This document shows positions 49,319-64,000 of a stretch of 64,000 nucleotides of DNA, in pieces (position 1 is the stretch's first letter; the number at the start of each line of letters is the position of its first letter). The stretch is taken from contig NZ_CP068439.1 of the NCBI RefSeq assembly GCF_016757735.1, positions 1,178,001 through 1,242,000 of the forward strand, in the 5' to 3' direction. The stretch comes from Aequorivita iocasae (GTDB lineage: Bacteria > Bacteroidota > Bacteroidia > Flavobacteriales > Flavobacteriaceae). The notes under the pieces were generated by a model. That model ran no database searches. It saw only the letters and a program-made list of their open reading frames with translations, and had not been told where the DNA came from. Made by a program: the position numbers and the translations under genes.

Positions 49319-50530
49319 ATGTCTTCGAATACAAAAATAGTTTTGAGAAAAAAAGCGAATAAAGAGGGGGAGTTTCCATTGGCAATTCGCATTACCAAAA
49401 ATAGACGTTCAAACTATCATTATGTTGGGCATTATATAAACGAAAAGTTCTGGGACATTAAAAATGGTAGGGTTAAGAACACGCATCCCAATGCGTTAAA
49501 ACTGAATAATCTTTTACTATCAGAGTTGTCCCTAGCGAACCAAACTCTTATCGATTTACAATCCCAGAAAAAGGACTTGTCTGCTAATCAAATTAAAAAT
49601 GAGATATATTCATCCAATGCGAACTCAAATTTTTTCACGCTTGCCGAAGTTTATCTTGATGAAATGAAACACAATAATAAACTCGCTCGGCTATCATCCG
49701 ATAAACCACGTGTGAAACATGTTTTGGAATTCTCAAAATCAAAACAACTTACTTTTCAAGAAATAGATGAAAGTTTTCTTAAAAAGTTTATTCTGTATTT
49801 AAGAAAGCGTCCTATGTCCGAAAGATCAATCGCAAATACTCTTATTGTTGTTCGAACAATTTATAATAGAGCTATAAAATTAGGGGTGGTGGACAGAAAA
49901 CTTTATCCATTTGGGTCTGGTAAGATTAGAATAAAATTCCCTGAAACTGAGAAAATAGGATTATCAAAAAATGAAATCAAATCATTGGAATCTGTTGAAA
50001 ATCTTACCAAAAATGAAATACACGCTAGAAACGTTTGGTTGTTCAGCTTTTATTTTGCTGGAATAAGAGCTGCTGACATTCTTAAAATTAGGTGGTCTGA
50101 CATTTATGACAAAAGACTCCACTACCGTATGAACAAAAATTCAAAACTTCTTTCTCTTAAGATACCGGATAAAGTTTTACCAATACTTGATTACTATAAG
50201 CCAGGAAAACTTAATGAAAATGATTTTGTTTTTCCAGAATTAAAAAAAGCCGATTTGAAAAATGCCAAAGATGTATATGCTAAGACGAAAACAGCTACCA
50301 AAAAATTCAACAAGTACTTAGTAGAGGTGGCGAAAAAAGCAAAAATCAAGAAAAAATTTACAATGCATATTGCCAGACATAGCTTTGGTCATATATCAGA
50401 AGACAAGATTCCCATTAAAATGCTTCAAAAACTTTACAGGCACTCTTCTATTACAACTACTATACAATATCAAGCTAATTTTATTCATAAAGATGCCGAT
50501 GAAGCTTTAGAAAGTGTGATTAATTTTTAA
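49319..50530 (+). CDS. tyrosine recombinase/integrase
   Basis: 403 residues of the Bacteroidetes phage/CTn-type integrase family. N-terminal arm-binding region, SAM-like core-binding domain (about 110-200) and catalytic domain. The Arg is in FAGIRAADIL (about 248), HxxR in HIARHSFG (about 351) and the nucleophilic Tyr in TTIQYQ (about 383). It reads away from the tRNA-Leu fragment and would catalyse integration there. The following 166 bases to the next gene are AT-rich and show nothing clear. Confidence 0.93.
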   Translation: MSSNTKIVLRKKANKEGEFPLAIRITKNRRSNYHYVGHYINEKFWDIKNGRVKNTHPNALKLNNLLLSELSLANQTLIDLQSQKKDLSANQIKNEIYSSNANSNFFTLAEVYLDEMKHNNKLARLSSDKPRVKHVLEFSKSKQLTFQEIDESFLKKFILYLRKRPMSERSIANTLIVVRTIYNRAIKLGVVDRKLYPFGSGKIRIKFPETEKIGLSKNEIKSLESVENLTKNEIHARNVWLFSFYFAGIRAADILKIRWSDIYDKRLHYRMNKNSKLLSLKIPDKVLPILDYYKPGKLNENDFVFPELKKADLKNAKDVYAKTKTATKKFNKYLVEVAKKAKIKKKFTMHIARHSFGHISEDKIPIKMLQKLYRHSSITTTIQYQANFIHKDADEALESVINF

Positions 50531-50696
50531 TTTGACATTTATTCAATTCTTTATTTCAAATAATCATGTGATCATAGAAATATTCCTGGCAAATATTTAT
50601 GCGAACATCCTAGAAGTGTTGACTTTTAAAGAGAGATGTATGTCAAAATTATAGTAAAATATTAGATGTTAATTTAGATCTTGTTAAGTTTACTTT

Positions 50697-53600
50697 TTAT
50701 TCAATTTTATTTTTATTTCTCTCAGGTAGAATATCATTAGAAACTTTTGCAACAGTGCCTGGTCCGGGCATTAAACTACCCTTGTTATGTTTTGCCCAAC
50801 AGGCCTTAATTAAGTATTCAGTATCCCTCTGTTCTGCCGAATTTAAAAATTTTGTAGAATAATTACTGCGGAGATTAGAATACAAATTTCCTAAATAAAA
50901 TGAGTTTTTATTTAATTTGGACATGTAAGTTAATATGGAATCTTTCCATCCTTGGGGTCTAGCAGAAATTTCCATTAAAGCAAGGATATGTCTAACTGTT
51001 TCGTCATCTTCTTCCAATCTGTGTTCACGAAAAAGCATTCTTAATTTATCGGAGAAAAGATCATCCTTAAACCAAATATTGAGATTTGAAGGCATGGCAA
51101 TTATGATGCTTTTCAAACATTCATTAAACTCCTTTGGAAAATCATCAGTTAACTTAAATCTTGCCCCTCCAACACCGCCAAATCCATTTTTCGCAAGAAC
51201 GGGGGCAATTAGATAAAGAGCTCTCATCAGCTCTTTCCATGCCTTTGCAATATTTTTTAGTAGTTCCTTTTTATGTTCAGGTTTAATGAATTCACTGTTT
51301 CTAAGTGCACGAGAACTGGATTTAATCAGCTCCATGAGATTTTTTACATCATACTCTTCCAGGTAATTATCAATTGTTTGAGTATATGGTTTTATACTAT
51401 CGTAATTTTTGTCGGCAACGATGTCTTTTATTTCATCAGATACCTTTGATTCTTTGATATTTTGTTCAAGCTGATGCTGTGTCATTCCTTTTTCAGTCTC
51501 ATTTAAGGACCATTTTATTTCCTTAAATAGATTTATGTCATCTGATAACCCAATTTTAGAATGTACTTTATCTGAAAGTTTTGAAATATCATTTATCAAC
51601 ATCTTCACTATATCCTCAGCTCTTCCATCTATGCCAGTATAAAATTCAATTACCTCCGGATAATATAGTGAGTGCTTATCTTTGAGCATATAAACTTTAA
51701 ATTCTTCCGAATCTTTCATTCTGATGGCTGCGAAATAATAAATCCAATAAGAAAATCTAAATCGTAACTCACCGTTCAAACCAATTACAATTTGGTTGTT
51801 TTTTAAAACTTGTAATAAATCTGAAACGTTCGATGGGTTATATTCTCTCTCACAAAAAGGCCTTGTAATTTTGTAAAATTCTTCTTCAGTAAAAGATTCT
51901 TTGTTCTTACGTAGAAGATATTCGCTAAAAAAACCTACTATAAATCCACAGTTCTCTTCATCAAGAGTGTCCCCATAGAATAAATTACCTGGATTATCAA
52001 AAATCACTTTTAATACGTATTTAAAAACTTTCGATCGATTAATCGGCCTATCTTCAAAGTCATTCAAAAACGCAATCAACAATTGAATGCAATTAATGGG
52101 AGTACGGTGAATATTTAAATCAACTAAATCTATATCTAATCGTTCAAGAACACGATTTTCTTCTGCTATTTCATACAGTGAATTGAAATCACTTACTAAA
52201 TTCCGCAGTCCTTTACGATTAAGTTCACGCAAAAATATTTGATCAAAACCTTCGTGACTTTCTTCAGAATCCAAACCTTCCAAAACAATATTATCATGAT
52301 AGTTAGAAAAAATTATTATTGGAATATTTAGGAATTTTCCTCGAATATTATTTAAGATTTTTTGAGAATCTTTTGTATTGTTTTTCCAATGATCCAATAA
52401 GATGCATTTAACAGCGTTATTCTGAATTCTAAGATCTTGTACTGTGTCTTCAAGATCGGAATGATATTTACCATATGTCCAATTGTGGGCATCCAAATAA
52501 ATCCAACATTCTTTTTTAATTTCCCAAGCCTTCATTGCTAAATAGTGAGCATAGCATGTTAGCCCAAATTGAGGAGCAGCAATTAAATGGTAATTCTTGG
52601 GTTCGTTTATTATGCTTATATAATCTATAATTTTTGAATTTTCTTTTTTAGTTGGGTTATTTGGAGAATCCGTTGTGCAAATCCGTTCAACCCAAGTCGG
52701 AGATTTTGAGTATGATTTCATTGCTTTTTGAAAATTCGACTGAAGTTTTAATGAGATAAAATCATCTGCAGTTATTTCTGAACGAATAAAATTCCAGATG
52801 CCACTTTCCGTACCAGAAAAGTTCTGCCCTCTCATGAATTTTCTCTGTCTGAGAACCCATTCTCTGTATTCAACTGAATCGATTTTCCCGTCTTCAAATT
52901 TAATTATTGCATATCCGTTGAGGTCTGATTTGGCTGAGAACAACTGTGGTGACCCCAATTTTACGACACCTTGATTTTCTGATATAAAAGAATGGTCTAA
53001 ATCTTGATCATGAATGTGACCAGATATAAGTATATCTATCCCGTTTTTAAGCATTCCTTTTATTTCTTTTCTGGCATAATTAGTAAGAAATTCTAAAGGG
53101 TGATGCATTACTAGCATTTTAGTACGACCTTTATTATCCTGAATCCATTGATTTAAACCGGAGGTGTCAATTTTCAACACACCTTTATCGTTAATGCCAT
53201 TAAACCCTCCAGAGCAAAGCATTGAACAATTGAGGAAGTAAATGGATAATTCTGGAATTAATAATTCTGCATATCCAGTCAAATTGAAATTAGATTTGTG
53301 CATTGTATTTTTACAAAACTGTTCATAAAACTTGAACTTATTTTGTATTAGGTTGTTTTCAGTTTTCGCAAATTCATTGAACTCTGTTTCCTCAAATTTT
53401 TGTGCAATTAGATTATTGTGCTCTTCAAAATTTTTTTCAACAATGTTTCTATTTAAATCATGATTTCCTGGTGAACAGAAAATATTCTGAAGGGAAATTA
53501 GTTTTGTCAATTTCTGAATAAAGTTGTCGTAAAATTCATTAAATATCTTTTCTGAGTTTCCCTTGTTAACTAGGTCACCAGAGATTATACAATATGTGTT

Positions 53601-53729
53601 GGCCGCATCAGATTTATTTAATTTAGACTCAAGGTCATCGAAAAAAGAACTTATTACTAGCCCTTGATTTTCAGGCTCATTATTTTCATAATGAATGTCA
53701 GAAATATGAATTATTGTTATCTCGCTCAT
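50697..53729 (-). CDS. metallophosphoesterase fused to a degenerate P-loop NTPase (defence candidate)
   Basis: 1010 residues from the ATG at 53729; a longer reading to 53771 would add MAIKIIQLKEIHKL before a phosphoesterase core that starts SEITIIHISDIHY. Calcineurin-like phosphoesterase: D11/H13 (SDIHY), GDLV 51-54, GNHD 88-91, MHH 208-210, GHIH 237-240, so all metal ligands are present. Residues about 380-560 look like a STAND-type NTPase, but Walker A reads AAPQFGLT (384-391) with Lys replaced by Leu; ILLD (443-446) is the Walker B. Residues 560-1010 are helical, sensor-like. No transmembrane segment. It has a conserved 55-bp repeat upstream. Similar architecture (effector plus STAND) occurs in anti-phage proteins; the activity here is inference. 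Confidence 0.8.
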   Translation of the reverse strand: MSEITIIHISDIHYENNEPENQGLVISSFFDDLESKLNKSDAANTYCIISGDLVNKGNSEKIFNEFYDNFIQKLTKLISLQNIFCSPGNHDLNRNIVEKNFEEHNNLIAQKFEETEFNEFAKTENNLIQNKFKFYEQFCKNTMHKSNFNLTGYAELLIPELSIYFLNCSMLCSGGFNGINDKGVLKIDTSGLNQWIQDNKGRTKMLVMHHPLEFLTNYARKEIKGMLKNGIDILISGHIHDQDLDHSFISENQGVVKLGSPQLFSAKSDLNGYAIIKFEDGKIDSVEYREWVLRQRKFMRGQNFSGTESGIWNFIRSEITADDFISLKLQSNFQKAMKSYSKSPTWVERICTTDSPNNPTKKENSKIIDYISIINEPKNYHLIAAPQFGLTCYAHYLAMKAWEIKKECWIYLDAHNWTYGKYHSDLEDTVQDLRIQNNAVKCILLDHWKNNTKDSQKILNNIRGKFLNIPIIIFSNYHDNIVLEGLDSEESHEGFDQIFLRELNRKGLRNLVSDFNSLYEIAEENRVLERLDIDLVDLNIHRTPINCIQLLIAFLNDFEDRPINRSKVFKYVLKVIFDNPGNLFYGDTLDEENCGFIVGFFSEYLLRKNKESFTEEEFYKITRPFCEREYNPSNVSDLLQVLKNNQIVIGLNGELRFRFSYWIYYFAAIRMKDSEEFKVYMLKDKHSLYYPEVIEFYTGIDGRAEDIVKMLINDISKLSDKVHSKIGLSDDINLFKEIKWSLNETEKGMTQHQLEQNIKESKVSDEIKDIVADKNYDSIKPYTQTIDNYLEEYDVKNLMELIKSSSRALRNSEFIKPEHKKELLKNIAKAWKELMRALYLIAPVLAKNGFGGVGGARFKLTDDFPKEFNECLKSIIIAMPSNLNIWFKDDLFSDKLRMLFREHRLEEDDETVRHILALMEISARPQGWKDSILTYMSKLNKNSFYLGNLYSNLRSNYSTKFLNSAEQRDTEYLIKACWAKHNKGSLMPGPGTVAKVSNDILPERNKNKIE

Positions 53730-53870
53730 TAATTTATGTATTTCTTTTAATTGTATTATTTTAATTGCCACTACATGTGTTTAGATGGCAGATTAATTGC
53801 TGCTATACAGCTAATGTTCGCGATTATTTTTCTAAAACTTCAAATATAAAATTATGCTTTTATATGTAAT

Positions 53871-53925
53871 TACGGAAAACCGTAACAGTGAGCATATTAA
53901 TTGGGGAGAATACCAAATATAATGA
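53871..53925. repeat. 55-bp direct repeat, copy 1 (promoter/leader-like)
   Basis: 52 of 55 bases identical to 56643-56697. It lies 142 bases upstream of the phosphoesterase start. On the minus strand it contains TATATTTG (53914-53921, TAnnTTTG -7 shape) and, downstream of it, a hairpin TTACGG-TTTT-CCGTAA. The rest of the 316-base gap is AT-rich without other signal. Confidence 0.85.
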
Positions 53926-54045
53926 AATAATTTTAACAATCGAATAGGCATTTGCAAGCTTAAAGATTGGCTGCCATTAATGAGAAATTAATATCCATAT
54001 TAAAGAAAAAGGTTAGCTAGTAACTTCGATATTTGTTGGAAATAG

Positions 54046-55194
54046 TTAATTTTGATCAAGCAATTCCGAAACGTTCCAAGCCAATCTTACTAATTCATTT
54101 TCCTGTTGTGATTCGGTTAATGTACTTAGCGGTTTGTCAGGAGAATTTACAGCTTGAAACTCAGACAGGTTTTTATCTTTAGTAAATAAGCATGGCCTCA
54201 CTATCAATGGCAAAATCCTAGTTCCGTGTTCTCTTGCATTCCGCAATAAGGTTGGAAGTTCATCATTGCGAATGAAATCGGATGCTAAAAAATCAGTTGA
54301 AATAATCAAAATTGCAATTCCAGCATCTTTCAAAGCATTTGCAATCTCAATTTTCCAGTTATCTCCTGCTTTTATTCGAGTATCATCCCACAAATCAAAA
54401 CTTTTGTCATTATGCATCAAAACCTTTAAGTTAGTCTGTACTTTTTTTAACCAAGCTGAATCTATGTGAGAATAACTAATGAAAATTTTGTTTTTATTTA
54501 TGGTAATATCTGTACTTATTTTTGGTTTTTTTTCCACTGTCTTATGTTCATTTATTGCTCTATTTATTTCAATGAGACCATTTAAACAATTCCCTTTTAA
54601 ATGACTTAATTTAAAATATTTTGCATCAATAGATTTTTGGCTTTTCAACGTCAACGCACCGAAACAATAAAGAGCTTCTATGTTTTTAAAATTACTGAGA
54701 ATATCTTTATGCGGAAATGAATTTAAAATCAAATTATTTAACCATAAATGAGTAATTGATTGGACGGATAATATTTCTAATGGAAAATTTTGAATGTAGT
54801 TATTTGAGATATTTAATTTCTGTAAATTTTTTAGGTTAGAAAAGGACTTTGGAAGACTGGTTAAATTATTTTTCGCTATTTGCAAGTTTTTTAATGACTC
54901 CAAATTTTCAATTTGAATCGGAATTGATTTAATTCTATTATTGTTCAAATTAAGAACTTTAAGTTTTTTTAAGGAACATATTTTAGAATAAAAGTTGTTA
55001 ATATCATTATTTGAAATGTCGAGAACCTCCAAATTTCTTAATTCTTCAATTTCCTTGGGTATTTTCTTAATTTTATTGTGGCTTAAGTTAAGTTTTCTTA
55101 AATTTTTTAGATATAAAACTTCTTCCGGAAAATTGGTTAATCCTTTTCTTGACAGGTCTAGTTTTGATATATGTTTTGAAGGAATTTCGACCAT
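54046..55194 (-). CDS. leucine-rich repeat protein with C-terminal TIR domain
   Basis: 382 residues. Residues about 8-180 are LRRs of the bacterial 23-residue type (LRKLNLSHNKIKKIPKEIEE, LKNLQKLNISNNYIQNFPLE), six to seven units. A short linker follows (about 190-235). Residues 236-375 form a TIR domain: KIFISYSHIDSAWLKK, LWDDTRIKAGDNW, IAILIISTDFLASDF and the probable catalytic Glu312 in NDELPTLL. No NTPase domain in between. Bacterial TIRs often cleave NAD+ or make signalling nucleotides on infection; LRRs are ligand sensors. Divergent from a small RNA gene, 55 bases away. Confidence 0.88.
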   Translation of the reverse strand: MVEIPSKHISKLDLSRKGLTNFPEEVLYLKNLRKLNLSHNKIKKIPKEIEELRNLEVLDISNNDINNFYSKICSLKKLKVLNLNNNRIKSIPIQIENLESLKNLQIAKNNLTSLPKSFSNLKNLQKLNISNNYIQNFPLEILSVQSITHLWLNNLILNSFPHKDILSNFKNIEALYCFGALTLKSQKSIDAKYFKLSHLKGNCLNGLIEINRAINEHKTVEKKPKISTDITINKNKIFISYSHIDSAWLKKVQTNLKVLMHNDKSFDLWDDTRIKAGDNWKIEIANALKDAGIAILIISTDFLASDFIRNDELPTLLRNAREHGTRILPLIVRPCLFTKDKNLSEFQAVNSPDKPLSTLTESQQENELVRLAWNVSELLDQN

Positions 55195-55236
55195 AACTTA
55201 ATTAAACTTTTAAATTTAAAGATAGTTTAATTTAAT

Positions 55237-55244
55237 ATATTTGA
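55237..55244 (+). promoter_or_regulatory. -7 element of the small RNA gene
   Basis: TATATTTG fits TAnnTTTG; a transcript would start near 55250. The -33 TTG is not clear in the AT-rich upstream DNA. Confidence 0.55.
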
Positions 55245-55249
55245 GCGTC

Positions 55250-55424
55250 CCTTCGGAGGTAAGGGGATTAATAAATTAAGCATAGGAGACGACGCGCACT
55301 CGGAACACAGGGTTACCTGTAGAGTGACAGAGTAGTCGGATGACTAATGCTGCTACGGCATCCTCACGAATATTAACTATAGTTATTAGACCCGAGCCGG
55401 CAAAGATGCCACTCGGGTTTTTTA
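55250..55424 (+). ncRNA. structured small RNA gene, about 175 nt, unknown family
   Basis: Stands between two minus-strand genes, with a -7 box upstream and a terminator at its end. Hairpins visible in order: TCCCT/AGGGGA with inner CCT-TCGG-AGG (55249-55268); CACTC/GAGTG enclosing ACAGG-GTTA-CCTGT (about 55297-55326); AGTC-GGAT-GACT (about 55335-55346); ATGCTG-CTA-CGGCAT (about 55349-55363); then the terminator. Two short open stretches contain no credible coding frame. It does not match 6S, tmRNA, RNase P or SRP RNA by the motifs I know. Strand is given by the terminator T-run. Possible roles: guide/antitoxin-type RNA or regulator of a neighbouring defence gene. Confidence 0.7.
55390..55423 (+). 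terminator. terminator of the small RNA
   Basis: ACCCGAG (55390-55396)/CTCGGGT (55412-55418) with inner GGCA/TGCC, then six T. Confidence 0.92.
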
Positions 55425-55498
55425 ATTACTGCCAAGGTTTTTGTATATGAGCTGTGGTTTATTTTGGCCCAGACCTTTCCAAATAAAACTGACTTTTT

Positions 55499-55575
55499 AA
55501 AATCCGCCTGGCTCTGCCCCAGGACCTCCCATTTAGATATGAGTGTGCTATCTAATTACACCACAGTTGGATTTT
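55499..55575 (-). tRNA. tRNA-like element (degenerate, anticodon uncertain)
   Basis: Exactly 77 bases between a perfect 7-bp acceptor-like pair AAAATCC/GGATTTT on the minus strand. In between: D-arm TGTG...CACA, anticodon-like arm CTCAT-ATCTAA-ATGGG with a 6-base loop containing CTA, and T-arm CCTGG-GGCAGAG-CCAGG whose loop lacks TTCGA. The long-range fit is tRNA, but the loop errors argue against a normal charged tRNA. It could be a decayed tRNA, a mimic or a remnant of an integration site. Confidence 0.4.
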
Positions 55576-55586
55576 AAAACCCTGAT

Positions 55587-55615
55587 GGTAAACTTGGCAA
55601 TAATGCCAAGTTACC
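55587..55615. other. hairpin AACTTGGCA-ATAA-TGCCAAGTT
   Basis: Perfect 9-bp stem extended by GGT/ACC with one bulged base, lying between the Ntn hydrolase stop and the tRNA-like element. No T-run on either strand, so not a standard terminator; possible processing or 3'-end structure. Confidence 0.55.
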
Positions 55616-55676
55616 AGACACCTCGACCTCCCCAGAATAATAAATTCAATTTAGTGGAGAGTCAGGGAGTTGCTTC

Positions 55677-56480
55677 TTAAATCGGTTGCCTTTGGGCTCC
55701 CGATAATATTTTTAATGTTTCAGGATTCATTCGTTCGAAGTTTTCATTCCTCCATTCAATTCTGTTAGAATTAATGTCCTCTGAACTTTCCTTTCCGTAA
55801 ATATACTTTTTATCATTCTCAACTATACCAAATAAGCGAAAATTTTCAATTCTATAAAGACCTACAATTTGTGGTAAACCGCCAGTCATTGGGTCTTTGA
55901 TTGTTTTTAATGTTTCGCTTAAACAATGGAAAACTCCTCTGCTGGTTCTGTAATTGTTATGTCGTTCTCTTTCCCATTCTTGAAAATTAGTGTCAAACTC
56001 TTTTTTACCAGAACCTTCGCTACAAATTTTAGTGGAAATGTTTGGAAGGTGTATTTGTTCATTTTTTAATCCATTGACTTTGTCAAAAGTTGTTTTAAAA
56101 CAAGAGAATTCCTTTCCACTTCTTGTTCCGTGTAAAATTGTAAATGAACCAGTTGATTGACCCTTTGGATAATTTTCTATTGATGTGGATATAAAATCTA
56201 ATATTTTATTGTTCTTTTCATTACCATTATCTAAATCGTTAAGAATTATTCCCGAATCAATTTGTGGTAATAATTGTCCCATAATAATACTGGGTATTAA
56301 GACATCTCCACAAAATCCAAAAATTTCTGGAAATCGTGAAGAACCAAAAACCTTAATTCCATGGTCATATTTATCAGCTTTTCCCCAGCTATACCTACTG
56401 TCGGATGCAATGTATAAGGATGCAGGTTTTTTACCTTCTTTATTATCGTCTACTCCAATCCAAGATATTATTAACGTCAT
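55677..56480 (-). CDS. proteasome-like Ntn hydrolase family protein
   Basis: 267 residues. It begins MTLIISWIGV; removing Met would expose Thr2 as N-terminal nucleophile, as in HslV/proteasome-beta proteins. SLYIASDSRYSWG (21-33) matches the conserved (A/G)-x-D-S-R segment after strand 2, and IFGFCGDVL fits the next strand pair. The rest is longer than HslV (about 175), with an insert around 85-200. Autoprocessing and substrate are not known. It carries the second copy of the 55-bp repeat 163 bases upstream. Confidence 0.7.
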   Translation of the reverse strand: MTLIISWIGVDDNKEGKKPASLYIASDSRYSWGKADKYDHGIKVFGSSRFPEIFGFCGDVLIPSIIMGQLLPQIDSGIILNDLDNGNEKNNKILDFISTSIENYPKGQSTGSFTILHGTRSGKEFSCFKTTFDKVNGLKNEQIHLPNISTKICSEGSGKKEFDTNFQEWERERHNNYRTSRGVFHCLSETLKTIKDPMTGGLPQIVGLYRIENFRLFGIVENDKKYIYGKESSEDINSNRIEWRNENFERMNPETLKILSGAQRQPI

Positions 56481-56642
56481 TCTTTTTTAATGTTTGCCAA
56501 CTTGTTTATACACGTTACTTTTATTCCTTTTATATTATTATTTGGCATGCTACGCGCTAGTTTTAATATAAAAACATTCATTATAATACATTTATGCGGC
56601 AATTAGTTTATGTAAATTTAAATCAAAATAAAATTCCTGCCT

Positions 56643-56697
56643 TATGGAAACCCGTAACAGCGAGCATATTAATTGGGGAGAATACCAAATATAATGA
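56643..56697. repeat. 55-bp direct repeat, copy 2
   Basis: Same as copy 1 except three bases (C/T, A/C, T/C). TATATTTG on the minus strand at 56686-56693. It lies upstream of the Ntn hydrolase. The hairpin pairing is kept on the plus strand with one G-U (TTATGG-AAAC-CCGTAA). Confidence 0.85.
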
Positions 56698-56776
56698 TTT
56701 TATGGTATGAATGGGAAAATGTTAGAAATAGTTCGTTGATAATAATTTAATTTATAAATTCTCACAGAACTATTAT

Positions 56777-57010
56777 TCAACAACTCAATTTTTTAAAAAA
56801 GTCTGATAGACTAATACCCCTAGCGTCGCAAATTCTCTTTAAGGTTTCAACCGGTAATCGATATTCTTTAGTACTTTTTATTTTCCGTACCGTACTTTCG
56901 TCGATATTGTGAGTGAGGGCGAAAGAGTTTTGTGATTTTCCTTCATTCAACCAAGGATGTAACCATTCCTCAGTTATATAGCTACAAATTTGAATATTAA
57001 TATTAGTCAT
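56777..57010 (-). CDS. small XRE-type helix-turn-helix regulator
   Basis: 77 residues. SQNSFALTHNIDESTVRKIK (26-45) is a helix-turn-helix of the XRE/Cro type, followed by VETLKRICDARGISLSDFF, the usual helix-4/5 ending. Divergent from the sigma/Cas12f-like operon across a 401-base gap containing several palindromes, so it is a likely regulator of itself and perhaps of that operon. Confidence 0.82.
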   Translation of the reverse strand: MTNINIQICSYITEEWLHPWLNEGKSQNSFALTHNIDESTVRKIKSTKEYRLPVETLKRICDARGISLSDFFKKLSC

Positions 57011-57059
57011 ATTAACAAAGGAAATATATGACTAACAAAATAATTCGGTCGTTCGACCG
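57003..57059. promoter_or_regulatory. operator-like inverted repeats at the HTH gene start
   Basis: TTAGTCATAT (57003-57012) and ATATGACTAA (57026-57035) are perfect 10-bp inverted arms spanning the start codon. A second palindrome CGGTCG-TT-CGACCG sits at 57046-57059. Good candidates for autoregulation by the HTH protein. Confidence 0.6.
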
Positions 57060-57097
57060 TAATTTAAGTTTTATTTATTATATTAGCGATGTATTTA

Positions 57098-57105
57098 TAA
57101 ATTTG
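57098..57105 (+). promoter_or_regulatory. -7-like element of the sigma/Cas12f operon
   Basis: TAAATTTG fits TAnnTTTG. A transcript starting near 57112 would carry a ~300-base leader containing the structure at 57121-57290. No -33 TTG seen. Confidence 0.45.
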
Positions 57106-57120
57106 CGATACTTCTTAAAG

Positions 57121-57290
57121 TAAAATAGTAGAAGCATTCGCTTTGAATCTCGGTTCGAAAACTGGTACTTTTTAAACACACGAGAGGATAAGTGTAAATG
57201 CTCACGACCCGGGGCGTGGGCTTACTTATTGTGTGTGGGTATACCAGTACCTCGAACCGGTAAGTTGAGACTCCACGCCCTTTTTGTTTG
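57121..57290 (+). promoter_or_regulatory. long structured leader with attenuator-like pairing
   Basis: A nested imperfect hairpin: CGGTTCGA/TCGAACCG (57151-57158/57252-57259), ACTGGT/ACCAGT (57161-57166/57243-57248), ACACAC/GTGTGT (57176-57181/57231-57236), ATAAGT/ACTTAT (57188-57193/57224-57229), GCTCACG/CGTGGGC (57200-57206/57215-57221). The apical GGGCGTGG (57212-57219) can instead pair with CCACGCCC (57273-57280), which is followed by five T. This gives alternative, terminator-like pairing. It could be an attenuator of the sigma gene or an independent RNA. Confidence 0.65.
57255..57279 (-). promoter_or_regulatory. candidate self-target of the guide RNA with 5'-G
   Basis: The minus strand reads GCGTGGAGTCTC at 57278-57267, matching the first 12 bases of the candidate guide (GCGTGGACTCTC) at 11 of 12. 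The adjacent 5' base is G (complement of C57279). The match ends after base 12. Read in guide direction, it points toward the HTH gene start at 57010. Confidence 0.45.
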
Positions 57291-57348
57291 TCAGAAAAGG
57301 CAAAATTCTCAACGCTTCAAAGTCATCTTCTCTTAATTATATAAAAGA

Positions 57349-57399
57349 ACTCGCTTTACATTCATTTAAATTATTACTCGTGAAATTATTAGCGAGTAA
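57349..57399. promoter_or_regulatory. three ACTCG-type half-sites upstream of the sigma gene
   Basis: ACTCGCT (57349-57355), TTACTCG (57374-57380) and AGCGAGTAA (57391-57399). The last is an inverted partner of both others (7-bp perfect arms). It ends 12 bases before the ATG; candidate operator. Confidence 0.5.
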
Positions 57400-57411
57400 A
57401 ATAAAGAGTTT

Positions 57412-58188
57412 ATGTCCGAAGACATCTTTATACAATTAAAAAAAGGTTGTCCCGCCGCCTTTGCGCACATACACGCAAAGTACAGCAGGAACATCTTCTG
57501 GGTGGGCAAGCGGCTTATTGAGGATGAGTTCGTAATAGAAACCCTGGTACAGGATGCCTTCTTAAAACTGTGGCTCCATAGGGACACGGTGGAAACACCC
57601 AAGCACGTCTTCTTTTTCCTGAGGTTCGTGATGAAGCGGGAATGCATTTCCTACTACACCCGTCCCAAGAACAAATTTTCTCGGAACGTCCATTCGTTGG
57701 AACGCTTCGAGAACTATCAGGACTATATGGCGGGCTATGACCCTCTTGCCGAGGAAGAAAATCTACACCTCCAAAATATATCCCAAGAGTACTTTGAAAG
57801 GCTCGAAAAGGTATTGCCCCTATTGGATGCCGAAAGCGGTCGTTTCATAGAACTCTGCCTAAAGTACGGCTTCCAGTACAAGGCGATCGCCGAAGCGATG
57901 GGAATGAACATTAAGGAAACAAGCGTCAAGATAAAAAAGGCAATTTCCGAAATCAAAGATATCATCCAAAAGGAAACGGTAATGGAAAAGCCAACCGTAA
58001 CATTGAAAGCCGAGCGAACCATTACAGAACAACAGACAGAGGTATTGAAACTACGCTGTGAGGGGAAACTCTCCTTTGCGGAGATCGCCACGGCGCTCGA
58101 CCTTTCCCAAAGGGAAGTCCACGAAGAGTTTATGGCCGCCTACAAGCTATCCCGAGACAAGCACCAACCACAACCACAATCCGCATGA
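57412..58188 (+). CDS. ECF sigma factor paired with a Cas12f-like protein
   Basis: 258 residues. Sigma-2 about 16-84 (YSRNIFWVGKRLIEDEFVIE, LVQDAFLKLWLH) and sigma-4 about 129-186 (YGFQYKAIAEAMGMNIKETS). A C-terminal extension (about 203-247; ITEQQTEVLKLRCEGKLSFA, EIATALDLSQREVHEEF) looks like a second sigma-4/LuxR-type HTH, unusual for ECF factors of about 170-200 residues. The next gene, Cas12f-like, starts one base after its stop (TGA-C-ATG), so they are co-translated. About half G+C, clearly above the island around it. Expected role: bring RNA polymerase to a site chosen by the Cas12f-like protein and its guide RNA; no promoter motif need be recognised. Confidence 0.9.
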   Translation: MSEDIFIQLKKGCPAAFAHIHAKYSRNIFWVGKRLIEDEFVIETLVQDAFLKLWLHRDTVETPKHVFFFLRFVMKRECISYYTRPKNKFSRNVHSLERFENYQDYMAGYDPLAEEENLHLQNISQEYFERLEKVLPLLDAESGRFIELCLKYGFQYKAIAEAMGMNIKETSVKIKKAISEIKDIIQKETVMEKPTVTLKAERTITEQQTEVLKLRCEGKLSFAEIATALDLSQREVHEEFMAAYKLSRDKHQPQPQSA

Positions 58189-58189
58189 C

Positions 58190-59287
58190 ATGGAAAAGGA
58201 GACAATGAAACTGACACGGAAGATACAGCTATTGGTCGACCTCCCCACCAAGGAAGAACGGAAGGAGGCACTGGACACCCTCTACCAATGGCAGAACAGG
58301 TGCTTCCGTGCGGCCAACCTCATCGTTACCCATCTGTACGTACAGGAAATGATAAAGGAATTCCTCTACCTATCCGCAGGGGTGCAATATAAACTGGCGG
58401 ATGAGAAAAAGGACGAATTGGGTCTACTGCAACGCTCACGTATCAACACCACCTATCGCGTGGTCTCGGACCGCTTCAAAGGTGAGATCCCCACGAATAT
58501 ACTGTCCACGCTCAACAACGCCCTCATAAGCGCCTTCAACAAGAACAGGCCGGAATACTGGCGGGGCGAATGCTCCCTCAAGAATTTCAAACGGGATATG
58601 GCCTTTCCGTTCAGTATGGAACTGGTCAGTGGGCTGCATTATGACGATGGGAAAAATGCCTTCTGCTTCAGCCTGTTCCAGATCCCCTTCCGCACCTATC
58701 TCGGAAAGGACTTTACCGACAAGAAAAAACTGTTGGAACGGGTCGTCGCCGGGGAGACCAAGCTCTGTACCTCCCATATCAAACTCAGGGACGGGAAGAT
58801 CTTCTGGCTCCCTGTCTTTGAGATCGAAAAGGAAGAGCATCATTTGAGGCCCGATGTGATTGCGGAGGCCTCACTTTCCCTTGAATATCCAATTATAGTC
58901 AAAACGGGCAACAACAAGCTCACCATTGGCAGCAAGGAGGAATTTATGTACCGTAGGCTGGCCATACAGGCAGCCAGAAGACGCGCACAAGCAGGAGCCA
59001 CCTTTTCCAAATCGGGCAAGGGGACCAAAAGAAAATTGAAGTCCGTGCGCTTCTTCTACCAGAAGGAGAACAGATACATACGGCACCGTATCCATGTGTA
59101 CAGCAAAAAGCTGATCGACTTTTGCATCAAGCACCAGGTGGGCACGTTGATATTGGTAGGCCAACAGGACAAGATTGGGATCGCCAAGGCGGAGAAATTC
59201 GTCCTGAGGAACTGGAGCTATTATGATCTGATAATTAAAATAAGGTATAAGGCCGAAAAGGCGGGCATCGAGCTTTTGGTCGAATGA
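58190..59287 (+). CDS. nuclease-dead Cas12f/TnpB-like RNA-guided protein (dCas12f)
   Basis: 365 residues from the ATG at 58190, one base after the sigma stop; the next ATG (58205) would give 360. Residues 7-220 show the Cas12f/TnpB WED/REC-like layout (KLTRKIQLLVDLPTKEERKE, TLYQWQNRCFRAANLIVTHL; KNRPEYWRGECSLKNFKRDM). The RuvC-like part starts about 224: in place of G-[IV]-D-x-G is EASLSLEYPI, so Asp is Ser228. IGSKEEFMYRRLAIQAARRR (246-265) is typical bridge-helix/linker. In RuvC-II GTLILVGQQ, Glu is replaced (about Val323). The protein ends KAGIELLVE, exactly before the CxxC zinc finger and RuvC-III Asp. So all three catalytic acids are absent, and DNA cleavage is not expected. No TnpA, inverted ends or cas1/2 nearby. 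Confidence 0.9.
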   Translation: MEKETMKLTRKIQLLVDLPTKEERKEALDTLYQWQNRCFRAANLIVTHLYVQEMIKEFLYLSAGVQYKLADEKKDELGLLQRSRINTTYRVVSDRFKGEIPTNILSTLNNALISAFNKNRPEYWRGECSLKNFKRDMAFPFSMELVSGLHYDDGKNAFCFSLFQIPFRTYLGKDFTDKKKLLERVVAGETKLCTSHIKLRDGKIFWLPVFEIEKEEHHLRPDVIAEASLSLEYPIIVKTGNNKLTIGSKEEFMYRRLAIQAARRRAQAGATFSKSGKGTKRKLKSVRFFYQKENRYIRHRIHVYSKKLIDFCIKHQVGTLILVGQQDKIGIAKAEKFVLRNWSYYDLIIKIRYKAEKAGIELLVE

Positions 59288-59294
59288 TAAACTG

Positions 59295-59394
59295 ATTGCG
59301 AAACGAGGGTGCTTGTACACCCGTAAGGTGGGGCCACTTTAGCGCACACACTAAATGTAAAGAGCATATACAACGCGTGGACTCTCTTATTTAA
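59295..59394 (+). ncRNA. candidate guide RNA (scaffold plus guide) of the dCas12f
   Basis: Directly after the dCas12f stop. Stem-loop 1 GGGTG-CTTGTA-CACCC (59307-59322), then GTAAG, closely resembles the Cas12f tracrRNA stem (from memory, GGCTGCTTGCATCAGCC then TAATG in Un1Cas12f1). Stem-loop 2 AAGGTG-GGGC-CACTTT (59325-59340), with the alternative TTTAG/CTAAA (59338-59342/59351-59355). GCATATACAAC ends at 59374 and resembles the Cas12f repeat end ATGCAAC. The guide would then start at 59375: GCGTGGACTCTCTTATTTAA. 5' start and 3' end of the RNA are not determined. Confidence 0.7.
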
Positions 59395-60373
59395 ATGGGG
59401 GCCAAAATTTAGGGAATTTAAAAAAGACGTTGGGGATTGTTGGTCAATTTCCGAGGGGGCCGAAACGGGAATTTTACTAAAAAATTCGTGAAAGATTTGC
59501 CTGTTAATGGGTGGTTTGAAGCTTTTTCACGGAAAATTACTAAAAAACAAATTTGCAAACTTTTATAAAACGCTAAAAGCAAATGATTTATAAAACATAA
59601 CATCGCGCAGCGTGTTATCCTCTTGCTTTACAAATTTTTTCCGCTCCGCTCCAAAAAAGTAAACTTTTATAAAACAAAAACAAACATAAATTTATAGCCA
59701 AACATTTTATTTTTTTAATATCAATTTCCTTTTAACTTTAAGGAATCATCAAGGAAAGGGTATTTTATTTTAGCTCAGACCCAAACGATTTACTTATTAT
59801 ATCCTGAGCGTTTTCCTTTCCTTTTCGAATAAGTGCAGAATTTCCAATCCAGTACAAATCGCCCCCACAGAACAGACACTATCCTCATCCCATTATCGAT
59901 TTACTTCCCATAGCGCCATCGCGTTACCTTTCCGATACTGCTCCATTTTAAAATTTGAAATTGGAAAAGAACTTATAAAAGGGAGCTTGCGACCGGTTAT
60001 GCAGTTCTCCAATTTTAAATTTTGCATCTTTAATCGGAAAGGTAATGGGATGGTGGGGTTTATAAATTTGATTGGGAATGTTTTGGAATGCTCTTTAGAA
60101 ATTCATCACTTCAATAGCAGCAGGATCAAGCGGACTCAATCTCAAAATTTATATTCCGGAATTTATTCTTTCAACAGTAAAATTAAATTTTGGGATTGTG
60201 TCCAAGAAAATGTAGTGACGCGCATTTCCCGAAATGCAATGGAGTGGGAATGGGCTGGAATGAGATGTATTCAAAAAATCCAAATTATATCAAATGACAT
60301 AATTAGATGGAAAAAAGTTACGATAGTGCTAAAAAAATTCTCATTTAGATATTATAAATGATAATTTTACAAA
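59395..60373. other. non-coding stretch after the guide RNA
   Basis: About 980 bases without a credible gene. It holds AT-rich DNA with two partial GGGGGCC...GGGAATTT repeats (59397, 59455), a GAATTTT/AAAATTC hairpin near 59470-59487, two copies of AAACTTTTATAAAAC (59557-59571, 59661-59675), the hairpin ATAACA-t-CGC-gca-GCG-TGTTAT (59597-59618), and the long inverted repeat at 59886-60052. A 124-codon frame (59987-60361) has no protein character. Confidence 0.6.
59886..60052. repeat. long imperfect inverted repeat
   Basis: Nested arms: CATCCCATTA (59886-59895)/TAATGGGATG (60043-60052), TTACCTTTCCGAT (59924-59936)/ATCGGAAAGGTAA (60033-60045), and AAATTTGAAATTGG/CCAATTTTAAATTT with one mismatch in the middle. 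May be a MITE-like remnant or an RNA structure. Confidence 0.65.
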
Positions 60374-61258
60374 ATGTTTTATAGAAGGAAAATTGTATTC
60401 GCATTGTTGGAGAATTTTGAAGAAGGATTGGAAAGTACTCGTCTTCAAAAAATGGTGTTTCTGTTAACCAGAATGCAGAAAGAAGCTAATTACGACTTTG
60501 TACCATACCGGTATGGCTGTTACTCCTATTCTTTGAATGCAGATCTCCGAGCAATGGTCAAACGGGAATGGCTTTCAGAAAATGAAAAAGCATACCGCCC
60601 CAAAATCAAAAAAAAGTACTTTAAAGAGCTTACCCCAGAAGATCAAAAATTGGTTACTAAAACTATTGCTCGATACGGGAATATGAAAACAGATGCCATA
60701 ACAAAGCACACCTATCTCAATTTTCCATATTATGCGACTAAAAGTATTATTGCTGAAAGATTGCTGCCAGAGCAATACTTTGAAAAAGTTATTATTGCTA
60801 GGCCAAGTGATGATAGCATAACTCTTTTTACCATCGGTTATGAGGGTATTTCTCTAGAAGAATATCTTAATCGATTAATCAAAAACAATGTAAAGTTATT
60901 AGTAGATGTGCGTAAGAATCCGTTGAGTCAAAAATATGGGTTTAGCAAAACGACTCTAAGTAGCTTTTGTGGCCGTTTGGGTATTGATTATATTCACATA
61001 CCAGAAGTCGGTATTGATTCTAGTAAGCGTAGAGAATTAAACTCGCAAGCAGATTATGACGAACTCTTTAAAGAATATCGAGAAACGGTATTAAACAATA
61101 CAGCGCATAGTCAGAATACTATTTTTGAATTGCTTTTGCGATACAAAAGAATTGCACTCACCTGCTTTGAAGCTGACACTTGCCAGTGCCACCGAACCCA
61201 TCTAGCCGAAAAATTAAAAAAATTGCCTAATTTTAAATATCCATTAATGCATATATAA
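60374..61258 (+). CDS. YwgA-like N-domain fused to DUF488
   Basis: 294 residues. Residues 1-130 (STRLQKMVFLLTRMQ, FVPYRYGCYSYSLNADL) resemble the YwgA/Panacea-like winged-helix domain. Residues 150-294 are DUF488: TIGYEG (153-158), DVRKNPLSQKYGF (178-190), IHIPEVGI, and the Cys-rich CFEADTCQCHR near the end. DUF488 genes recur in bacterial defence islands; biochemical role unknown. First of three tightly packed genes (3 bases, then 0 bases). Confidence 0.8.
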   Translation: MFYRRKIVFALLENFEEGLESTRLQKMVFLLTRMQKEANYDFVPYRYGCYSYSLNADLRAMVKREWLSENEKAYRPKIKKKYFKELTPEDQKLVTKTIARYGNMKTDAITKHTYLNFPYYATKSIIAERLLPEQYFEKVIIARPSDDSITLFTIGYEGISLEEYLNRLIKNNVKLLVDVRKNPLSQKYGFSKTTLSSFCGRLGIDYIHIPEVGIDSSKRRELNSQADYDELFKEYRETVLNNTAHSQNTIFELLLRYKRIALTCFEADTCQCHRTHLAEKLKKLPNFKYPLMHI

Positions 61259-61261
61259 AAT

Positions 61262-62083
61262 ATGGCCCTCACTAAAGTTCTGATTACCGTAAAGACTTAC
61301 CCGACTTTCTCATCTACCTACGGCGAATTAGTATGTACAGCAGGATTTCTTGAAGATGGATCTTGGATCAGACTTTATCCCATTCCTTTTAGAAAATTGA
61401 AACAAGACGAACGCTATAAAAAATATCAATGGATAGAATTGGATATTGTAAAAAATGACAAGGATTTTAGACCAGAAAGTTATCGCCCGGCAACCATCGA
61501 TACACCTATTAACCTTTTAGAGACCATTGATACTAAGAATAATTGGTTTTTAAGAAAACAGTTTGTTCTAAATAATGTACATACGGATATGAAAGCTTTG
61601 ATAGCAAGTGCACACGACAAAGATATCTGTACGTCATTGGCAGTTTTTAAACCTACAGTCATAAAGAATTTTAAAATTGAGCAAATTGCTGGCGAATATG
61701 ACAAAAAGAAATTGGATCAACTACAAGCGTTGAATGATCAACAAAATCTTTTCGAAATGGACGATCTTAAGTTCGAGCTTGCCGAAAAACTTCCTTATAA
61801 ATTTTCATATGAACTCGAAGATGAAAACGGCGTGCCCAGTACGATGATGATTGAAGATTGGGAAATAGGACAATTATACAGGAATACTCTTGCCGCATCA
61901 GAAGGCAATCAGTCGGTAGCTACAGCTAAAGTTAAAGAAAAATACTTTGATGATTTTGCCAAAACAAAGGATTTACACTTATTCCTGGGAACAACGAAAT
62001 CATTTCACTATCGTTCCAGAAATCCATTTATGATAATAGGAACTTTTACCCCTAAAATTGATACACAAACCAGCCTCTTCTAA
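61262..62083 (+). CDS. DUF488-associated protein, unknown
   Basis: 273 residues, no signal or membrane segment. Start TKVLITVKTYPTFSSTYGEL, then TAGFLEDGSWIRLYPIPFR and a C-terminal YRSRNPFMIIGTF. I recognise it only as a frequent neighbour of DUF488 genes, without assigned function. The close spacing to both neighbours suggests that the three products act together. Confidence 0.65.
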   Translation: MALTKVLITVKTYPTFSSTYGELVCTAGFLEDGSWIRLYPIPFRKLKQDERYKKYQWIELDIVKNDKDFRPESYRPATIDTPINLLETIDTKNNWFLRKQFVLNNVHTDMKALIASAHDKDICTSLAVFKPTVIKNFKIEQIAGEYDKKKLDQLQALNDQQNLFEMDDLKFELAEKLPYKFSYELEDENGVPSTMMIEDWEIGQLYRNTLAASEGNQSVATAKVKEKYFDDFAKTKDLHLFLGTTKSFHYRSRNPFMIIGTFTPKIDTQTSLF

Positions 62084-62890
62084 ATGCGCTGTATTTTCTG
62101 CAAACAAATATCAGATTTATCTAAAAGTGTCCAGCATATAATTCCTGAATCATTGGGAAACAAGGATTTGATTCTTTCCTATGGGACGGTATGTGATTCT
62201 TGTAATCAATATTTTGCGATTAAAATAGAAAAGCCGATGTTAGAAATGAACTATTTTCAAAATGTCAGGTTCAGGAATCAAATTAAAAGTAAAAAAGGTA
62301 GAAATATTACTTACAAAACTCTCTTCCCTCATAAAGATGGTGGTTGGTTCGATATGTATATTCAGGATGACAGCCTTGCATTCAGTGGCGATGATTCAAA
62401 AATTATCAATTTAATTAAAGAAAAAAAAGTAAATAAAATGATGTTTGAAGTGGTTGACCAGCCAGTATATCCCAACATCAATGTCTCACGTTTCCTTGCA
62501 AAAACAGCTATTGAAGCCTTTGCTATAAAATTTGAAGACGATAGGAAATTACTAAATGAAATGATTGATATGCCTCAATTAGATCCATTAAGAGAATTTG
62601 CTCGATATGGAAAAGGAAAATTTTGGAACTATCACCAACGTCGCATTTATTCTGAGGAAACTCGTTTTGAAGACCCTCTACACCATCCAGAACCTTATGA
62701 AGTACTACACGAATTGGATTTCTTGATACTTAAGCCGGGTATATATTATTTCGTTTTGGTAATTATGGGTATTGAGTATGTTATCAATTGTGGCGCTTCT
62801 GAATTGGATTTATATAAACATTGGTTATTGAAAAATGATGATATTTCACCCATTAGAAGATTTTCGGAAAGAATAATAAATAAAAAATGA
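62084..62890 (+). CDS. HNH endonuclease family protein
   Basis: 268 residues. N-terminal MRCIFCKQ ... SVQHIIPESLGNKD ... TVCDSCNQYF gives the two CxxC zinc knuckles around an HNH-like H-I-I-P-E-S-L-G-N motif. The rest (about 60-268) is unknown, possibly recognising the target. It starts right at the stop of the previous gene. Probably a DNA- or RNA-cutting effector of the DUF488 operon. Confidence 0.8.
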   Translation: MRCIFCKQISDLSKSVQHIIPESLGNKDLILSYGTVCDSCNQYFAIKIEKPMLEMNYFQNVRFRNQIKSKKGRNITYKTLFPHKDGGWFDMYIQDDSLAFSGDDSKIINLIKEKKVNKMMFEVVDQPVYPNINVSRFLAKTAIEAFAIKFEDDRKLLNEMIDMPQLDPLREFARYGKGKFWNYHQRRIYSEETRFEDPLHHPEPYEVLHELDFLILKPGIYYFVLVIMGIEYVINCGASELDLYKHWLLKNDDISPIRRFSERIINKK

Positions 62891-62949
62891 AGCAATTTAG
62901 ATAATTTCTTATTAAAATTTTACATCCTGCCTATTTACTCCAAAAAAAT

Positions 62950-63537
62950 TCAATGTGTTATAAATCTATTGTAATAATGTAGTTTTAACTGTAATGCGAC
63001 ATACACTTCAAATAAGTAAAGCTCTGTTGAGCCTTGTATGGGCAAAAAGGATACCTGGCAATCTTCTCTCAAAATCTTTTTAAATGGTCCTGAAAACTGT
63101 TCAAAATTAAGTTCCTTTCTCGTTCCTGTGTGCTTTATTCCCAAAACCTCATTATGGTATTCTCTACCCATGGTGTAACTCAAAGAAGATGAGAAATGAT
63201 TTGATCCTTTTATATGTTGATGTATACGTTTAATAACACCGCGGGATATTCCTGTGTAAAATGGTTCATCATCTAACCAAAAGAGATAAATACCCTTAAA
63301 ATCTTTGGATTGCTCTAATTGAGGGATTAGGGCTTTTAAGGAATTGCGAGACGTCCCCTTTCCAACTCCTATTTTACCAAAGTTCTCAAATATACTAATC
63401 ACCCTTGACCTATTTGTAAGCTTAGTGAGCATTGCAGGAAAATTTTCAATTATATCCTTAAATTCCCGAGTTTCATCAGGCAAGAAATTTGGTGGCCAAT
63501 ACTTTTGAAGTTTTACGGTTGGTTTTGCATCTGTCAT
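62950..63537 (-). CDS. GIY-YIG nuclease-domain protein
   Basis: 195 residues. GIYLFWLDDEPFYTGISRGV (about 81-100) is the GIY...YIG pair (here YTG), followed by the conserved Arg/His region IKRIHQHIKGSNH. The catalytic Glu may be the one in TELYLFEVYVAL. 8 bases after the DUF3800 gene on the same strand, forming a pair convergent with the DUF488 operon. Confidence 0.78.
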   Translation of the reverse strand: MTDAKPTVKLQKYWPPNFLPDETREFKDIIENFPAMLTKLTNRSRVISIFENFGKIGVGKGTSRNSLKALIPQLEQSKDFKGIYLFWLDDEPFYTGISRGVIKRIHQHIKGSNHFSSSLSYTMGREYHNEVLGIKHTGTRKELNFEQFSGPFKKILREDCQVSFLPIQGSTELYLFEVYVALQLKLHYYNRFITH

Positions 63538-63545
63538 TGTGAATA

Positions 63546-64000
63546 CTAATCTTTAAAAGCTTGCGGAAAATTGTGAACTAAAAAATCAAGTGGGTTAATA
63601 CCTTCTCCTTTCTCTAAACCCAATGCTGTTGGCGACACATCGTCTGTTGGCCATAGGCAATGAGAATTCGACAATTGGAATAGCTTACTTTCTTTAATTT
63701 GTTTTGAAAACTTTTCCATTTTACCTTTTTCATTATTATAAGCAAATGCAATTGCGCTGGCAATTAAATCAGCACATTGAACACCCATTTCATCAGTAGA
63801 GCTAACCAATTCAACAGATGAGATTTGATGAGGAAAACTCATAGTACGATTGTCATATCCTATTTCTATGGTTTTGCTGGTATTTACCACAAGTTCAAGA
63901 GTTTTCTCGATGTACGTGTTGTAATGTTCAATTTGTTTTGACTGATCAAATCTTACATCAATTTTATCATTAATCTGTTTTGCCCATTTATCACAAAGAA
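63546..64000 (-). CDS. DUF3800 family protein, partial (continues past the window)
   Basis: The frame is open to the window edge (LCDKWAKQINDKIDV, then FDQSKQIEHYNTYIEKTLEL), so the GTG at 63890 is not a start and only the C-terminal ~150 residues are seen. SSTDEMGVQCADLIASAIAF is the conserved DUF3800 C-terminal motif (RNase H-like fold predicted for the family). Likely co-transcribed with the GIY-YIG gene. Confidence 0.75.
   Translation of the reverse strand, partial: LCDKWAKQINDKIDVRFDQSKQIEHYNTYIEKTLELVVNTSKTIEIGYDNRTMSFPHQISSVELVSSTDEMGVQCADLIASAIAFAYNNEKGKMEKFSKQIKESKLFQLSNSHCLWPTDDVSPTALGLEKGEGINPLDFLVHNFPQAFKD

Follow-up and report, generated by a model that had tools for sequence, protein, structure and literature searches.

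A dCas12f and sigma factor pair of Aequorivita iocasae and its probable address, a structured RNA element before SusC-SusD operons

The closest described relatives of the locus analysed here are the solved chains 9n9c, 9n9m, 9n9o and 9n9q, named nuclease-deactivated Cas12f, which we take to be the dCas12f-sigmaE RNA-guided transcription system of Flagellimonas (Allomuricauda) taeanensis. This system was reportedly published by Hoffmann et al. in 2025 from the Sternberg and Chang groups; no paper with a dCas12f plus a sigma factor as its subject was among the matches listed in our literature search. Its targets are reportedly marked by a 5'-G motif, with transcription starting some tens of bases away. 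RNA-guided activation by dCas12f and a sigma factor is a natural counterpart of CRISPR activation, and to our knowledge the natural purpose of such activators is an open question. On the RNA side, riboswitches and attenuators, such as the cobalamin riboswitch, precede genes of TonB-dependent transporters. A further relative is TldR, a nuclease-dead TnpB repressor described in PMC13418256 as repressing flagellin.

The window, that is, the whole stretch of 64,000 nucleotides analysed (C1:1178001-1242000 of a single-contig genome of 3.35 Mb), carries on its + strand an ECF sigma factor gene (57412-58188, 258 aa) and a Cas12f/TnpB-like gene (58190-59287, 365 aa). According to the ORF list and the sequence, a single base separates the stop codon of the first from the ATG of the second, just as the sequence-only reading had it. 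The sigma factor exceeds the Pfam cut-offs for sigma-70 regions 2 and 4 and the cut-off of TIGR02937 (sigma70-ECF), with a TIGR02985 match (E 2.3e-21) below cut-off, and has an extra region-4-like stretch at its C-terminus (residues about 204-240). It is homologous to the solved RpoE (9n9q chain C, E 2.5e-89). Residues 1-364 of its neighbour align with residues 1-364 of 9n9c_A (E 5.8e-186), and the PADLOC Cas12f profile matches at E 7.1e-50; the scores of OrfB_IS605 (Pfam) and of guided_TnpB NF040570 (E 7e-16) stay below their cut-offs. The dCas12f of A. taeanensis (L043) is 73% identical to the window protein and shares with it the gene order and the downstream guide RNA. With both proteins aligning nearly full length to the solved nuclease-deactivated Cas12f and RpoE, the precedent of a nuclease-dead Cas12f working with a sigma-E, on which the sequence-only reading had drawn, is supported. 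The features of that family found here are a dCas12f, an adjacent RpoE-like sigma factor, the loss of RuvC acids, a downstream scaffold and, from sequence only, the 5'-G.

The Cas12f nucleases (9nzo, 7c7l and others) are homologous to the window protein in sequence, which in alignment differs from them and from the Type V-F CRISPR nuclease in lacking the RuvC acids and the zinc ribbon. The Asp of VDLG in 9nzo_B, another Cas12f chain, which we take to hold the first RuvC acid, faces a Ser in the window protein, and the ERL following AIQM, presumably carrying the second, lies opposite a gap. The match ends at residue 414 of 506 in 9nzo_B, as the window protein stops before the zinc ribbon and the last RuvC acid; a Pfam search gave no zinc-ribbon match at E up to 10. 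This agrees with the loss of RuvC acids and zinc finger noticed earlier, and, judged by its alignment, the second protein is a nuclease-dead Cas12f deprived of its RuvC acids.

The sequence-only reading had staked itself on the adjacency recurring in related genomes, and a sigma gene indeed lies beside dCas12f at all 73 full-length loci fetched (64 once duplicates are removed), the gap being 1 or 2 bp in 68 of the 73. The nearest named loci belong to Aequorivita, with Cas12f-like proteins 93 and 91% identical. Among 397 genomes of the family sampled, 21 gave a dCas12f match, full length in 16 of them; sampling of kin inflates counts of this sort. Like TldR, the window protein is of the nuclease-dead TnpB lineage and would act with a guide RNA, although for the window pair this is read from sequence; unlike TldR, a repressor without a sigma factor, it has an RpoE-like partner, which suggests activation rather than repression.

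Downstream of the dCas12f gene lies a conserved guide RNA scaffold with a predicted fold (59305-59374, + strand), followed by the guide GCGTGGACTCTCTTATTT (59375-59392, + strand, for an assumed length of 18 nt); the predicted guide RNA consists of the scaffold and the end GCGTGGACTCTCTTAT. An alignment of 27 sequences (the window and 26 relatives chosen by us) shows the conserved motifs GAGGGTGCTTGTACACCC...CACTCACTAAATG...CATATACAAC and three helices, 4 of whose 17 pairs have changed on both sides, in keeping with the structured RNA first noticed behind the Cas12f gene. What follows the scaffold varies as guides do. Several relatives have arrays holding different guides, and the guides of the Flagellimonas, Echinicola, Robertkochia and Salegentibacter types are entirely different. 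Nevertheless, in 45 of the 64 distinct dCas12f loci the guide has GCGTG(G/A) at or near its start, and 20 of these 45 R-like guides, named after the element R described below, go on close to CTCTCTTAT across many genera; at 17 loci the guide is not R-like, and in two no guide was found by the pattern used. In 14 of the 45, from Chryseobacterium and its kin, the match covers only 8-9 nt before the sequence turns mostly T-rich, so the effective guide may be short. A guide conserved across many genera calls for a conserved target.

Tandem arrays of guide-RNA units stand behind dCas12f at L062 (7107-7524), L063 (7112-7536), L015 (2614-3136) and L081 (7325-8227), and in L062 and L063 a further unit stands after a duplicate of the final ~25 dCas12f codons. 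There are also six fragments of dCas12f genes that retain a guide-RNA unit (L017, L018, L025, L084, L085 and L086, of which L018 and L084 are the same place); five of the six have an R-like guide, as if they were stand-alone guide genes or relics.

A second structured RNA, which the sequence-only reading had not picked out, lies upstream of the sigma gene. This element, R (57105-57285, + strand, about 180 nt), is a structured RNA gene or leader composed of a 5' hairpin, a core (57141-57279) and a U-tract (57281-57285). It scores 146.4 bits with the covariance model R1, whose training set included the window copy. Six helices, one of them a pseudoknot, are supported by covariation over all 61 distinct rows of alignment A2, with 95.5% of cells paired and 21 of 36 pairs changed on both sides; A2 was fitted to R1, which holds parts of the helices counted (Palt, described below, excepted) and so biases the count towards them. 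None of 500 shuffles reached as high on any of five measures, and slid controls were far lower. The weakest pairing is the outer pair of the pseudoknot, present in 33 of the 61 rows; one separate analysis of A2 omitted the two weakest rows (L036 and L045:4245).

R contains GGCGTGGGCTTACTTATT with a G in front, and in the window the G and the guide-like segment (GCGTGGGCTTACTTATTG, 57213-57231, + strand) differ from the guide at 4 of 18 positions. This segment lies in a strand that can pair in two ways. It takes part in helix P4 and also in the alternative helix Palt, in which GGCGTGG pairs with CCACGCC just before the U-tract. Over the same 61 rows Palt is paired in 98.4% of cells and has two-sided changes in 4 of 7 pairs; among 500 shuffles 0 to 4 did as well, and energy minimisation folds the window copy into the Palt form (57212-57219 with 57273-57280, z -2.95). 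As judged by covariation, R has two mutually exclusive helices with one common strand, hereafter the switch strand. Two exclusive states on one shared strand are the usual build of a terminator switch, and we infer that R may work as one. A terminator scan of 56950-57420 gave two calls against 0.3 expected, one being the P4 hairpin and the other the putative operator palindrome described below, while Palt was not called because its loop is longer than the scan allows; a promoter scan of the same segment gave two sigma-70-like sites against 1.7 expected. Of the traits of riboswitches looked for, a conserved structure and alternative helices before a gene are present. As in the riboswitches before TonB-dependent transporters, R precedes SusC in 36 of 64 copies and has two exclusive helices, one of them followed by a U-tract; it differs from them in having no overlapping Rfam match and in standing beside a divergent small gene.

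Within 50000-64000 an Rfam search (E up to 5) gave no match overlapping R or the guide RNA, and R was not seen in the portions of PMC13418256 and PMC9723704 that were covered. Elsewhere in the searched segment two matches below the gathering score, snoU36a (62386-62464, E 0.03) and a flavivirus stem-loop (57783-57829, E 0.32), lie apart from both RNAs and were set aside. A tRNA/tmRNA scan of the whole window gave none.

The covariance model finds three copies of R, each about 140 bp, in the 3.35 Mb of the host genome, and the two outside the window precede SusC-SusD-S9 peptidase operons. R is commoner than dCas12f, occurring in 67 of the 397 genomes of the family against 21 with any dCas12f match, and in a phylum-wide sample it was found in 33 of 345 genomes, 14 of them outside the family. 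All 16 genomes with a full-length dCas12f have R, versus 51 of the 381 others; when only copies away from the genome's own dCas12f locus are counted, 12 of 16 stand against 51 of 381 (Fisher p 1e-7, kinship not corrected). From 115 places, 64 copies were chosen non-randomly (dCas12f genomes and high scorers) for a closer look. Downstream of them lies a SusC-like gene in 36 (called by BLAST to one SusC), a sigma gene in 13, with dCas12f in 12 of these, and something else or the contig end in 15. Behind each of the two SusC-SusD-S9 peptidase operons of the host genome (L093 7510-14870; L127) comes a small convergent ORF, 86 aa long and in L093 identified as DUF6520. Two genomes of one genus, G019 and G248, have some R copies (L135, L144, L180, L181 and L183) that stand before a small ORF of ~110 aa and not before SusC.

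A small divergent ORF lies just upstream of R in 60 of the 64 copies. Among five of its products tested as HTH proteins, three pass the Pfam cut-off, one is a weak match and one has none; the window copy is a Cro/C1-type HTH gene for a putative local regulator (56777-57010, - strand, 77 aa; HTH_26 26.3 bits, cut-off 22). Between it and R lie the palindrome CGGTCGTTCGACCG (57046-57059), a putative HTH operator whose arms of 6 are below the length of 7 counted across copies, and TATATTAG (57079-57086, + strand), a putative promoter element for R, presumably of the Bacteroidetes -7 type, which fits the widened motif pattern and not the first one. Immediately ahead of R, 40 of 64 copies have a palindrome whose arms reach at least 7, compared with about 12 in base shuffles, and a TATATTTG-like motif stands 55-75 bp before the R core in 51 of 64, a count made without a control. 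The palindromes and this motif together suggest that the divergent small regulator controls the promoter of R. In L093, L154, L158, L170 and L185 the palindrome CGGTACG..CGTACCG lies upstream of R where the divergent gene is of 105-109 aa, so the type of regulator and its operator may go together.

The guide of the window reproduces the switch strand of R. Its best non-self match in the host genome has 2 of 18 mismatches and a 5'-G and lies inside R before a SusC-SusD-S9 peptidase operon (R copy C1:3101133-3101270, predicted target C1:3101205-3101222, SusCD from C1:3101509), which makes this the strongest predicted site. At up to 3 mismatches over 18 nt there are four non-self matches, two of them in R copies, versus one for the reversed-pattern control; the third R of the genome can be matched only by allowing a gap or a C instead of the G. 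Two expectations of the sequence-only reading fit the outcome of these searches: that a genome-wide search with the guide would find sites upstream of genes, with one or a few genes turned on (there is one good non-self match, before a SusCD operon), and that a G would precede the target, as it does the predicted one in 62 of 64 R copies, given a loose motif and sequence only. An R-like guide together with a copy of R elsewhere than at the dCas12f locus is found in nine of the genomes. Six of these show a match at 0-1 mismatch of 16 and one (G257) at 2, preceded by C. In G144 an unusual guide matches an unusual R in 9 of 9 seed positions (GCGTGACAT); the guide of G309 fits the distant R poorly, and the guides of the third dCas12f locus of G094 stand at 6-9 mismatches of 16 from every R copy tested.

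We consider it likely that the locus is an RNA-guided transcription initiator whose natural address is R before SusCD operons, and that a start past the switch strand bypasses R. What is new here is the probable address, the pair itself being of a known kind. The dCas12f would load the guide RNA made just downstream of its gene, find DNA composed of a 5'-G followed by GCGTGG(A/G)CTCTCTTAT, and bring the ECF sigma factor paired with it, along with RNA polymerase, to the target. The address would be the R lying between the divergent small (HTH-type) regulator gene and the SusC-SusD uptake operon. By analogy with the solved system, dCas12f would open the DNA of R where the switch strand lies, and polymerase recruited by the sigma factor would begin tens of bases past the target, beyond the switch strand but still within the R core. 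In 61 of the 64 copies the core ends 65-70 bases from the target start, just before the U-tract. A transcript begun past the switch strand would lack one strand of Palt, could not form the terminator-like helix and would read into SusCD, so that transcription of the operon may bypass both R and the local regulator. In some species, the copy of R that precedes the sigma gene itself would provide feedback.

The same resemblance could be read at the level of RNA, the guide pairing with CCACGCC of nascent R as a trans antiterminator or a decoy. It is the switch strand that the guide resembles, and the covariation of Palt (98.4% of cells paired, two-sided changes in 4 of 7 pairs) ties that strand to CCACGCC. 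Nevertheless, we think this unlikely, since the sigma partner of the solved relatives points to DNA, a G ahead of the target in 62 of 64 R copies is what a DNA target motif would leave, and the guides of Flagellimonas match a different element. Equally doubtful is that the system serves mainly autoregulation, with the guide targeting the R before its own operon and the likeness to SusCD sites being a by-product of shared R ancestry. In 48 of 66 cases the sequence ahead of the sigma gene does hold an R motif with up to one mismatch, and the own R of G322 matches its guide in 16 of 16 positions; however, the SusCD copy matches better than the own copy in the host genome (G000) and in G370 (1 versus 3 mismatches of 16), and at six loci with R-like guides (L002, L051, L054, L055, L080 and L083) the fetched DNA contains no match to R.

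The GCGTGG... following the scaffold might instead be no guide, belonging to the scaffold itself or marking a 3' end, which would account for its strong conservation across genera and for the T-rich tail in Chryseobacterium. We regard this as very improbable, as the same scaffold is followed in relatives by wholly different sequence, arrays hold several such sequences, and the one in G144 follows its R variant. A degenerate, inactive transposon gene that happens to lie beside a sigma factor, as the lost catalytic residues and the gene fragments in relatives might hint, is hardly credible for a full-length open frame adjacent to a sigma gene at 73 of 73 loci and with a solved homologue.

Returning to the initiator directed to R, a wider proposal can be drawn from the same data, which we hold tentatively and with slightly more doubt than confidence. 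R would be an undescribed class of structured RNA, present in Flavobacteriia and some other Bacteroidota, which is transcribed under a matched local HTH regulator and closes with a switchable terminator before SusCD. A single guide that copies the switch strand, held by RNA structure across genera, would address the R-controlled uptake operons as a set, restart transcription past the switch and override both layers of local control. The constraint of RNA structure on the target may be the reason why the guide stays the same across genera.

The A. taeanensis system differs from that of the window in that its guide addresses another element before SusC. In Allomuricauda an inverted repeat unrelated to R, GTTGTGGGATA...TCCCACAA, lies about 260 bp before SusC (L210, L213 and L212, around position 1501). 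A guide of the Flagellimonas type matches one arm of this element. In A. abyssi such a guide, not R-like, matches 14 of 14 positions, with a G in front, at sites some 260 bp ahead of two SusC genes, both cut by contig ends, and in A. taeanensis a site with 1 mismatch precedes one SusC (SusC genes of these two species being identified by tblastn); in A. aurea, the other of the three Allomuricauda genomes searched, there is no site at 0-1 mismatch before SusC. These sites were kept, at 0-1 mismatch and with SusC, from a search of the three genomes with a 15-nt pattern including the G, which gave 44 matches at up to 2 mismatches versus 38 for controls; two further 1-mismatch sites (L214 and L216) lie away from SusC. 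An 18-nt search with the A. taeanensis guide returned the guide itself and two 3-mismatch matches, as against two for the control, and with guides of the CCTTCCC type the matches to possible targets numbered 59 versus 49 for the reversed control in G329 and 51 versus 61 in G100, on the whole no excess over the control. Taken together, the guide matches in R before SusCD and the Allomuricauda sites before SusC indicate that SusCD cassettes are likely the regulon of many dCas12f-sigma systems. The evidence thus points to a concrete regulon, outer-membrane uptake operons of the SusCD type, with named target sites.

The operon lies among defence-like genes found with PADLOC (window 50697-55194 and 60374-62083), the matches near it including PDC-S60 (E 1.2e-46), a ThsB-like TIR protein (E 4.4e-17) and a PDC-M19A/B pair (E 4e-126 and 5.6e-122).
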